NCBI GenBank assembly: GCA_028693565.1
Contig: JAQUVE010000015.1
Location: forward strand, 1 to 32,768
Source of the DNA: Sulfurospirillaceae bacterium
Lineage (GTDB): Bacteria; Campylobacterota; Campylobacteria; Campylobacterales; Sulfurospirillaceae
Reading direction: 5' to 3'
Length of the DNA stretch: 32,768 bases
The notes beneath the pieces were generated by a model, which saw nothing but the letters and a program-made list of their open reading frames with translations, did not search any database and was not told where the DNA came from. This document shows positions 10,469-16,603 of the stretch, piece by piece. A program made the position numbers and the translations under genes. How positions within the stretch are numbered: position 1 is the stretch's first letter; every line of letters starts with the position of its first letter.

Positions 10469-12810
<2,342 letters not shown>

Positions 12811-13878
12811 TTAAATCATTATAGGCATAACAATAGTGATAAAATTATCGCTTTCTAATGTGAAAGGTAATCCACTATCATTAAATCCTAAAGTAAAATT
12901 AGCCTGCTCACAGTGTGATAAAAAATCCAACATATAGCGGCTATTGACAGCTAGAAAAATATCATTTTCTAAACCTGTTTTAAATTCAATTTCTGTTTTA
13001 GCTTCAATATTATCATCATTTAAACTTTCAAAAATCACTTTTTCAGTTTTGAAAGTGATTTTAATTTCGTTAGAAATAATAAAAATTTGTTTAATAGATT
13101 CAATCATCATATCACGATTGAGTAAAATTCTAAAATTTTTATTTTTTGGAATAATCCGTTCATAATCTGGAAATTTACCATTGATTAATTTAGTAAAAAA
13201 TTGAAAATTTGATGCTGTGGCAATCAATGTATTTTCATCATAAAATATTTCAATATCATCAAAAAAGAGTTTTTGGATTTCTGTAATAGCTTTTTTAGGA
13301 ATTATGAGTGAAAAATTTTCACTTGTCTCTTTTTCAAGTTTAACAATAGCCAATCGTTTAGTATCGGTAGCTACTAAATTAATCATGCCATCTTTGATAT
13401 CGATGAGTGAACCGTTGAGTTCAAATTTTGGATTATTTGTATCGATAGCTGGAGCAATTTTTTTAATGGATTGAACCAATGTTTTACTATTGATATCAAA
13501 TTTTGGTTTGTTTTCTATTTGAGGGAAAGATGGAAAATCATTAGGATTAAACATTGGAAGTTTAAATTTTGAACTATTTTGTTTAATATATAAATAATCA
13601 TTAATTGTTTCAAAAACAATATCATCATCTTTGAGTGTTTTAATAATATCAATAAGTTTTTTACCATTGGCTGTTGCATTACCTGTCGTAATGATTTTAA
13701 CATCTTGAAGCGTATAGGTTAAGCCAATTTCATAATCTGTTGCTTGAATTAAAAGATGGTTATCTTTGGCTTCAATTAAAACATGAGAGGTAATTTGACT
13801 AAGATCTTTTTTTTCTAAGTATGCTTGAGTGTTTAATAAAATAGTTTCTATAACACTTTTTTTAATTGAAACTTTCAT
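12811..13878 (-). CDS. dnaN: DNA polymerase III beta sliding clamp
   Basis: This is the ring-shaped processivity clamp of the replicative polymerase. The 355 residues have the three-domain architecture, starting MKVSIKKSVIETILLN and ending with the clamp C-terminal motif VMPIMI. AAAGGAGATGAG gives a strong ribosome site. It has its own -10 (TATAAT on the minus strand, 13952-13957) in the gap after dnaA, so it can be expressed apart from dnaA. Its upstream region doubles as an origin-like element. Confidence 0.98.
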   Translation of the reverse strand: MKVSIKKSVIETILLNTQAYLEKKDLSQITSHVLIEAKDNHLLIQATDYEIGLTYTLQDVKIITTGNATANGKKLIDIIKTLKDDDIVFETINDYLYIKQNSSKFKLPMFNPNDFPSFPQIENKPKFDINSKTLVQSIKKIAPAIDTNNPKFELNGSLIDIKDGMINLVATDTKRLAIVKLEKETSENFSLIIPKKAITEIQKLFFDDIEIFYDENTLIATASNFQFFTKLINGKFPDYERIIPKNKNFRILLNRDMMIESIKQIFIISNEIKITFKTEKVIFESLNDDNIEAKTEIEFKTGLENDIFLAVNSRYMLDFLSHCEQANFTLGFNDSGLPFTLESDNFITIVMPIMI

Positions 13879-14033
13879 CTCATCTCCTTTTATTATTTAA
13901 TATTAAAATAGTCGAAATAGTAGTATGGGTTGAAAATGTGAAAACCTAAAAATTATACCTCAAATTAGGCAAAATAGTAAGTGAAAAACTTTTTTTATTT
14001 GGTCACATTTCATCACAAAATTTAGTAAAACTT
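13879..14033 (-). other. oriC: Candidate oriC2 / basal unwinding element between dnaA and dnaN
   Basis: Read on the minus strand the order is: DnaA-box candidate TTTTTCACT (13988-13980), the dnaN -10, DnaA-box candidate GTTTTCACA (13945-13937), spacer TTTTCAACCC (13936-13927), then triplets ATA-CTA-CTA-TTT-CGA-CTA (13926-13909) and pure AT sequence to 13891. This is the order of the Bacillus basal unwinding system: DnaA boxes, GC-rich spacer, DnaA-trios, AT-rich duplex. Campylobacterota origins studied so far lie around ruvC-dnaA-dnaN, and Helicobacter has a second origin part downstream of dnaA. The box and triplet matches are seen directly; function is inferred. Confidence 0.65.
13952..13957 (-). 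promoter_or_regulatory. -10 element of the dnaN promoter
   Basis: TATAAT on the minus strand, about 75 bases before the dnaN ATG. It lies between the two DnaA-box candidates, so DnaA binding could affect dnaN transcription. Confidence 0.55.
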
Positions 14034-15359
14034 TTAAGACTCTTTCGTTAATATTTTGTTTTTTAACTCTTCTACTCTTAATTTAAACGATTCATTTGTC
14101 ATAATTAATTCATTTATTTTTTTAATATTATGTGAAACAGCTGTATGATCTTTCATACCAAAATAGGTGGCTAATGATGGCATAGAATTTGGTGTTAGTG
14201 TTCGTGCTAAATAGATGCCAATTCTTCTTGCTTCAACGATATTTTTACTGCGTTTTGTAGATTTAATTTCACTAGGTTTAATATTAAGATCTTTAGCAAT
14301 AATAGCAATAATATCTTCAAGGGTAATATTTTCACGGCGCTCTTTAATTTGTTCACGCATGACATTTTTAGCAAATTCAAGCGTAATTTCTTGGCGCATC
14401 AGTGATGCATAGGCATTAAGATTGATAATAGCACTTTCAATTTCACGAATATTATCACCCATATTGGCTGCAATATAATTAACAATGTCAGGACTGAGTG
14501 TAATACCATCAAGCTCACACTTTTTATTAATAATAGCAATCTTTGTTTCAAGTTCAGGCAATCCAATATCAGCAATTAAACCCCACTCAAAGCGACTTTT
14601 TAGGCGATCTTCTAAACCATTGATCATTTTAGGTGGTTTATCAGAGGTTAAAACAATCTGTTTACCAGCAGAATGAAGTTCATTAAAAGTGTGAAAAAAT
14701 TCTTCTTGAGTTTGAATTTTATTCGATAAAAATTGTGTATCATCTATTAATAAAACATCACAATTACGGTATTTTTCTCGGAAGCGATCCATGGATTGAT
14801 TGCGAAGATTATAGGTAAAATCATTCATAAATTGTTCAATTGTAGCGTAAATAACACTTTTACCCTTACTTTGAGCATAATTACCAATAGCATGAATTAA
14901 GTGTGTCTTACCAAGTCCTGTAGGGCCATAAATAAAGACAGGGTTATACATAATGCCTGGTTTTTCTGCAACTGATTTTGCTGCCGTATAAGCATATTGA
15001 TTTGAGCTTCCAACAACAAAACTTGAAAAAGTATAGGATGGATTGAGAATAGTACTTTTAGTATTTTTTGCAATTTCAATGATGTCAGTGCTAATGGGTT
15101 TACTTTTAGTTGTTTTGACATGCTCTTTTAAAATGATTTTAATTTCAGGTTTATTACCCATTTTGAGTTCAAACAAATGAGCAATTTTATCGCAGTATTT
15201 TGTTTTAACCCAATTAGCAATCAAAATATTAGGCGCAATAAATACCATTTGCCCTGAGTTTGATGCTTTTTCATGAAATTTTAGTTGTTTGATATAGCGA
15301 TCATATTCTAAAGAAGAAATTTCCTCTTTTAAAAGACTTAAAATCGTATCTGCTAACAA
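14034..15359 (-). CDS. dnaA: Chromosomal replication initiator DnaA
   Basis: This AAA+ protein opens oriC and loads the helicase. The 441 residues include the N-terminal helicase-interaction domain (about 1-80), a short linker, an AAA+ core with Walker A GPTGLGKTH and Walker B VLLIDDTQF, and a C-terminal DNA-binding domain with the signature DHTAVSHNIKKI. The start codon is TTG (15359-15357) with AAGGAG five bases upstream, which argues that the UUG is genuine and may limit DnaA synthesis. The promoter -10 is TAAAAT on the minus strand at 15417-15422. DnaA boxes flank that promoter, so autoregulation is expected. Confidence 0.98.
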   Translation of the reverse strand: MLADTILSLLKEEISSLEYDRYIKQLKFHEKASNSGQMVFIAPNILIANWVKTKYCDKIAHLFELKMGNKPEIKIILKEHVKTTKSKPISTDIIEIAKNTKSTILNPSYTFSSFVVGSSNQYAYTAAKSVAEKPGIMYNPVFIYGPTGLGKTHLIHAIGNYAQSKGKSVIYATIEQFMNDFTYNLRNQSMDRFREKYRNCDVLLIDDTQFLSNKIQTQEEFFHTFNELHSAGKQIVLTSDKPPKMINGLEDRLKSRFEWGLIADIGLPELETKIAIINKKCELDGITLSPDIVNYIAANMGDNIREIESAIINLNAYASLMRQEITLEFAKNVMREQIKERRENITLEDIIAIIAKDLNIKPSEIKSTKRSKNIVEARRIGIYLARTLTPNSMPSLATYFGMKDHTAVSHNIKKINELIMTNESFKLRVEELKNKILTKES

Positions 15360-15416
15360 AAAAACTCCTTAAAAAAATCTTCACCATGTGAATAACTATG
15401 TGAATAGATGGTTTTC

Positions 15417-15422
15417 ATTTTA
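15417..15422 (-). promoter_or_regulatory. -10 element of the dnaA promoter
   Basis: TAAAAT (GATAAAAT) on the minus strand, about 58 bases before the TTG start. Two DnaA-box candidates lie in the predicted leader, at positions consistent with repression by DnaA. Confidence 0.55.
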
Positions 15423-15460
15423 TCTAAAAAATTATTAGTTATATGTTAAAGAAGGATAGG

Positions 15461-15466
15461 TATAAT
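15461..15466 (+). promoter_or_regulatory. -10 element of the ruvC promoter
   Basis: A perfect TATAAT preceded by GGATAGG, about 53 bases before the ruvC GTG. Three DnaA-box candidates follow directly in the leader, so ruvC expression may respond to DnaA as well. Confidence 0.6.
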
Positions 15467-15518
15467 GTGAAAAAAAGTTATTCACCCTGTGAAAAACCCG
15501 TGAATAAAGGATATTGAC

Positions 15519-15992
15519 GTGATTATTTTAGGTATAGATCCAGGTACTAAAAATTGTGGTTATAGTATTTTAAAAAAAGAGAAAAATAGCCTTATTTTAA
15601 TAGAAGCAGGACTTATAAAAATAAAAGAAAAAATACTCCAGCATCAGATTATGGAACTCGTTGAAGGGCTTGATACTATTTTTAAACAACATACCATTGA
15701 TGAAGTTGCTATCGAAGATATTTTTTATGCATATAACCCTCAAACAGTATTAAAACTTGCTCAATTTCGAGGAGCTTTAAGTTTAAAAATTTTACAAGTG
15801 ATTGGTAATTTTAGTGAATATACACCCTTACAGGTGAAAAAAGCTGTCACAGGTAATGGCAAAGCAGCAAAAGAGCAAGTCGCTTTCATGGTTAAAAAAA
15901 TTTTAGGGATTAAACAAGAAATAAAACCTTTGGACATTACAGACGCTATTGCAATAGCCATCACACATGCCCAAAGGCTTAAAATTAATTAG
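15519..15992 (+). CDS. ruvC: Crossover junction endodeoxyribonuclease RuvC
   Basis: It cuts Holliday junctions after RuvAB branch migration. The 157 residues carry the four acidic catalytic residues D7 (GIDPGT), E66 (AIEDIF), D139 and D142 ([14 protein letters not shown]). The start is GTG at 15519 with AAAGGATATT upstream. The end overlaps the convergent thyX end by 4 bp (TTAG), with no terminator between them. Divergent from dnaA across the origin region, as in other Campylobacterota with a ruvC-dnaA-dnaN arrangement. Confidence 0.97.
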
Positions 15993-16603
15993 ATATTTTC
16001 TTTGATACTAAAGAGGTATTTATGCTCTTCTGGGAGCGCATTATAAAGTGCATGGGCTAGGTTTTGAATTTCCCATAAGGCACTTTTATCACTACGAAGG
16101 GTTAAAAAGTTTTGAAGACTTCTAGCATTGATTGTCCATGTGAGTTCAGTCTTATAACTCTCTGGAAGGCAATATTTTGCCTTATCATTGCTAATACCTT
16201 CTATAAGTACTAAACGCAAGTTTTCAAGTGCTTTAAGGCTCATTTCATCGACTCTATTAACACCTGTTAAAACAAGGTATTTTGAAGCACGTTCAAAATC
16301 GTTACATGTAAAGCTTTCTTCGGCTTTTAATTCTTTAAGGGTATAACGTGTCGATTTAACAGAGAGTGAAGCCATGCGATGACGTGCCAATTCTTGTAAA
16401 AGGGCTCGTGAGATGCCTTCAATATAAAAGTTATAAACAAGGTGCTCTAGGGTTGAGGCATGTTTAAATTTATTGCCAACACGATCGATGAGTTCTTTGT
16501 CTTTTTCCCCACCTTCATCACTTTTGTCAAAACTTTGCCAACAGGTACGAATGGCATCGGCACATATGAGAAGAGGAGTGTAGTGATTAAGCGTAATTTT
16601 CAT
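15989..16603 (-). CDS. thyX: Flavin-dependent thymidylate synthase ThyX
   Basis: It makes dTMP from dUMP using FAD and methylene-tetrahydrofolate. The 204 residues from ATG 16603 contain the ThyX signature RHR-x7-S (R74 to S84) with Y87 after it. An upstream in-frame ATG at 16633 adds 10 residues but lies in one arm of a perfect hairpin and precedes the natural N-terminus [10 protein letters not shown], so I prefer 16603. A -10-like TATACT is on the minus strand at 16637-16642. ThyX rather than ThyA is usual in this phylum. Confidence 0.93.

Follow-up and report, generated by a model that had tools for sequence, protein, structure and literature searches.

Gene Content and Order of the dnaA Locus

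The window analyzed here is a stretch of 32,768 nucleotides from the genome of a Sulfurospirillaceae bacterium. Its minus strand carries dnaA (14034..15359, with a TTG start, recognized from its open reading frame and from similarity), dnaN (12811..13878, an open reading frame whose match lies downstream of dnaA in relatives), and gyrB (12780-10468, by sequence recognition), and a ruvC-like gene lies divergently at position 15519. The resulting order is that of the conserved ruvC-dnaA-dnaN-gyrB locus described for the Epsilonproteobacteria by Jaworski et al. (PMC5043019). Also encoded in the genome is HobA, known in H. pylori as a partner of DnaA. No Rfam families were found within 12000-16000.

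Between dnaA and dnaN lies a gap of 155 bp (14033-13879), which, read on the minus strand from 13945, runs GTTTTCACA TTTTCAAC CCATA CTA CTA TTT CGA CTA TTTTAATATTAAATAATAAAA GGAG. These elements, together with their order and spacing, are observed directly, and their comparison was based on a same-genus set of 23 gaps, including the present one, that comprises 14 distinct arrays, and on 69 gaps from other Campylobacterota.

DnaA Boxes and the Spacer

The first element, GTTTTCACA (13937..13945, minus strand), is the upstream, DUE-proximal DnaA box, “DUE” denoting the DNA unwinding element, and is found by direct reading exactly where the original prediction had placed it. Its TTCAC core is intact, and the string TTTTCAC is invariant in 23 of 23 genus members. 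With two mismatches to TTATTCACA, one to the W. succinogenes consensus TTWTTCACN, and three to the E. coli box TTATCCACA, it lies within the limit of the “basal unwinding system” (BUS) of at most two mismatches to a standard or group-specific box. The box had been taken to stand alone; it is instead one of a pair, as a second, degenerate half-box with a TTCA core, ATTTTCAAC (13929..13937, minus strand), had been overlooked and overlaps it by 1 bp. In all 23 genus members the second TTCA core follows the first by exactly 8 nt, and both cores are present in 50 of the 69 other Campylobacterota. The order of strengths within the pair can also vary. In the Arcobacter-type gaps L087, L089, L179, L181, L182, L185, L186, and L191, TTCAT stands in the first half-box and a full TTCAC in the second, which puts the stronger box of the pair on the opposite side.

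Because what had been described as a C-rich spacer contains this second TTCA core, the true spacer between boxes and triplets is reduced to about 5 nt, CCATA (13924..13928, minus strand), which is only weakly GC-rich. Its length is fixed, with 7 nt separating the second TTCA and the first CTA in 23 of 23 genus members, while its sequence is poorly conserved: mean conservation across the genus is 0.96 for the first box, 0.93 for the triplets, and 0.69 for the spacer. From the box at 13945-13937 to the first CTA (13923) the distance is 13 nt, and from the second half-box 5 nt, in keeping with the spacer of the BUS, which is at most 16 bp and commonly 10-13.

Two further sites extend this half of the locus toward dnaA. 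Another DnaA box, TTTTTCACT, is located at 13980..13988 (minus strand), and relatives have TTTCAC at about the same place. Distal box-like sites in the opposite orientation, TGGTCACATTTCATCACA (13998..14018, plus strand), are degenerate here and read TTTTTCACA in most relatives, on the evidence of an alignment (GTGAYGARATGTGAAAAA on the minus strand).

The Triplet Array and the AT-rich Run

Immediately beyond the spacer, direct reading gives the array CTA-CTA-TTT-CGA-CTA (13909..13923, minus strand), a putative single-strand DnaA binding site of the “DnaA-trio” type. The array is short, with three consecutive trios, one broken slot, and one more CTA. The complement of CTA-CTA-TTT nevertheless provides, on the proper strand and in 23 of 23 genus members, the minimum of three consecutive 3'-NAN-5' trios (mostly GAT) by which the BUS is recognized. 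The original prediction had read six triplets, ATA-CTA-CTA-TTT-CGA-CTA; of these, the slots of CTA-CTA-TTT and of the last CTA keep to the trio rule in every genus member. The leading ATA (13926-13924) was rejected as a first trio, having a middle T in 9 of 23 only, and CGA likewise falls away.

Variation among the slots is far from even. Slots 1, 2, 3, and 5 have a middle T in all 23 genus members and slot 4 in none; CTA itself occupies slots 1, 2, and 5 in 23, 22, and 22 of the 23, and slot 5 is CTA or CTG throughout. Slot 4 (13914-13912, minus strand), which is CGA here and thus off the trio rule, has a middle purine in every member of the genus, with the variants CAT, CGA, CAA, CAG, and AAA. 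Among the other Campylobacterota, slots 1, 2, and 3 have a middle T in 69, 67, and 62 of the 69 gaps, and slot 4 bears the weakest likeness to CTA among the five (16/69 versus 47/69 for slot 5). The slot figures lean upward because the parser behind them, which treats slots 4 and 5 alike, favors CTA. Some arrays of these other Campylobacterota (8/47) show a one-base slip at slot 4. In the other sampled loci, mostly from Bacilli and Clostridia, slot 4 has a middle T in 91%. It is conceivable, if rather doubtful, that the fixed interruption marks the end of an essential three-trio filament and that a distinct, conserved contact lies one subunit beyond it. As the 23 genomes are related, the pattern is a lead rather than a demonstrated constraint. 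The misfit of slot 4 next to an intact fifth slot is the sole detail of the locus without an earlier report.

An AT-only run, the AT-only part of the DUE, follows the last CTA as had been predicted, although it comprises 21 bases (13888..13908, minus strand) rather than 20, and ends at the dnaN ribosome binding site. The least stable 50-bp stretch of the gap, 13887-13936, stands at the 99.1 percentile within the window. Judged from sequence and stability, the gap thus presents a DUE beside an inward-facing box, as expected of the bipartite Campylobacterota origin. No GATC is found in the 155-bp gap by reading, and the 13-mer L/M/R repeats starting with GATC that typify an E. coli-type oriC are accordingly missing from it.

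Conservation and the Question of Chance

In DNA this rich in A and T, a match of this kind might arise by chance, and the loose published rule (a box with at most two mismatches, 0-16 nt, and at least three NTN triplets) does little to answer the objection: it yields 210 matches in the window versus 145-176 in shuffled versions, and is satisfied by 61% of the shuffled gaps. The rule was therefore rejected as evidence, being almost uninformative in AT-rich DNA such as the window. A strict pattern, defined as TTCAC, 10-18 nt, and CTACTNNT, behaves quite differently. Both strands of the 32.8-kb window contain a single match, at the gap, compared with one match in total (mean 0.05) in 20 dinucleotide shuffles of the window and none in 5,000 shuffles of the gap. 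All 23 same-genus genomes show the strict layout with identical spacing, and 45 of the 69 gaps from other Campylobacterota also have the layout, against 1 of 1,380 shuffled gaps. Conservation of the triplets in close relatives, which the original prediction had named as a check, is thus complete within the genus and widespread in the phylum, and it already refutes a chance match, the probability of which is now negligible.

The likeness to Bacillus in order, orientation, and spacing within the equivalent gene gap is likewise borne out, Bacillus and Clostridium loci having the same layout. The scan of contigs from other genomes, which covered named Sulfurovum, Sulfurimonas, Sulfuricurvum, Arcobacter, Nautiliaceae, and Bacilli loci, returned no near relative. 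One locus in the collection, L084, is titled Sulfurospirillum sp. bin3007; its genus label looks wrong, as its DnaA is just 61% identical to that of the window.

The Upstream Box Cluster and GC Skew

The prediction that the chromosome opens between dnaA and dnaN made no mention of a second element of the locus. Between ruvC and dnaA lie seven TTCAC boxes (15377..15507), the densest box cluster in the window, with six good boxes in 121 bp; relatives for which this gap sequence is available have 6-8 boxes in each. This cluster, “oriC1”, and the boxes of the dnaA-dnaN gap, “oriC2” (13929-14018), together form the pair of TTCAC-core clusters on which the bipartite Campylobacterota origin is defined. 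Initial opening could in principle occur in oriC1, leaving the dnaA-dnaN gap merely to regulate dnaN or titrate DnaA, and the six to seven conserved boxes as well as an AT stretch (15416-15465) slightly less stable than that of the gap, with more boxes too, are what such a proposal would draw on. A trio array was nonetheless searched for in oriC1 and found neither in this genome nor in the relatives with ruvC-dnaA gap sequence, and all Campylobacterota tested so far unwind in the dnaA-dnaN gap or an equivalent oriC2, so that opening in oriC1 appears highly improbable.

GC skew, another check that had been proposed, also points to this locus. In the window, skew is negative on the left and positive from about 13-14 kb; the cumulative curve hardly changes between 13 and 22 kb, which makes the minimum broad. 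As the assembly of the window's genome consists of 232 contigs, the genome-wide skew was measured in a complete relative (G003), sampled as 20 stretches of 20 kb. In that genome, mostly negative values at the record's end give way to positive ones at its start, the location of dnaA, and the opposite change occurs at about 1.0-1.2 Mb.

The Probable dnaN Promoter

The gap must also be considered as the leader of dnaN. A TATAAT at 13952..13957 (minus strand), conserved in 23 of 23 genomes, is the probable -10 element of the dnaN promoter. The call rests on this conservation, since a generic consensus promoter scan performed at chance level and did not list the dnaN TATAAT. Its position implies a likely transcription start at about 13945, which falls on the DnaA box next to the DUE, and DnaA binding and dnaN transcription may therefore compete. 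The invariance of TATAAT and the likely start at the box would also fit a gap kept mainly as dnaN promoter and leader, with the triplets a by-product. A promoter, however, has no need of phase-fixed CTA triplets 30-50 bases past the -10 element, nor does it account for the retention of CTA in slots 1, 2, and 5 next to a drifting spacer and slot 4, or for the same triplets in Bacilli. There is consequently very little likelihood that promoter function is the main reason for the conservation of the gap, and promoter and origin functions can coexist in it.

Comparison with Known Origins and a Proposed Mechanism

For closely related bacteria, experiments have already established the arrangement seen in the dnaA-dnaN gap. 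P1 nuclease has revealed DnaA-dependent opening there in A. butzleri, W. succinogenes, S. denitrificans, and C. jejuni (PMC5043019, PMC6052347), and the DnaA-trios of H. pylori have been demonstrated by mutagenesis (PMC8235120). A bipartite origin in which oriC2 is the unwinding half and carries trios has been published for Arcobacter, Wolinella, Sulfurimonas, and Helicobacter (PMC5043019, PMC8235120). Sulfurospirillum shares with these the ruvC-dnaA-dnaN site, TTCAC boxes on both sides of dnaA, and, in the dnaA-dnaN gap, a DUE-proximal box facing the DUE, DnaA-trios, and an AT-rich DUE; it differs in sequence-level details and in that slot 4 is broken in every member. In C. jejuni (PMC6052347), twin DnaA boxes with a 1-bp overlap also lie beside the DUE in the dnaA-dnaN gap, but the trios are reported as degenerate and the origin as monopartite, whereas here the trios are clear and the oriC1 cluster is conserved. 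The BUS of B. subtilis, made up of DnaA-boxes 6/7 and DnaA-trios (PMC6669920, PMC8287927), has in common with the present locus the tandem boxes, a short spacer, CTA-CTA-... on the dnaA-to-dnaN strand, an AT-rich run, and the same gene gap. The cores are TTCAC here and TCCAC there, however, and the array here is shorter and interrupted, with a spacer that is hardly GC-rich.

Taken with the uniqueness of the strict layout in the window, the conservation of the triplets and of the oriC1 cluster, the skew, the presence of HobA, and the published P1 work on other Campylobacterota, these comparisons make it very probable that the chromosomal origin has its DNA unwinding element, including a DnaA-trio array, in this gap, as the original prediction held apart from its omission of oriC1. 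By analogy with the experiments on relatives, DnaA would bind the twin TTCA boxes in their double-stranded form, and an ATP-DnaA filament would grow from them along the strand that pairs with the CTA triplets (3'-GAT-5', the plus strand of the window). By stretching that strand, the filament would open the duplex across the trios and through the AT-rich run as far as the dnaN ribosome binding site, and the oriC1 cluster upstream of dnaA may assist via looping or regulation.

One feature of the DnaA protein itself may count against this reading. By an alignment made by eye, residue 182 is apparently a threonine where B. subtilis has the single-stranded DNA-binding isoleucine I190, and threonine occupies the equivalent position in 7 of 8 aligned Campylobacterota DnaA proteins. 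One relative also has a second DnaA-like open frame of 256 amino acids, far from dnaA (G010:C1:1048368-1049093), with 69% identity over DnaA residues 95-336, which is either a partial copy or a gene of a mobile element.

No Sulfurospirillum origin is mentioned in the main text of the papers retrieved. In AT-rich genomes the loose published rule discriminates poorly, and the per-slot map of DnaA-trio conservation across the phylum indicates which slots matter. The published model of the Campylobacterota origin is thereby extended, with strong comparative support, to Sulfurospirillum.
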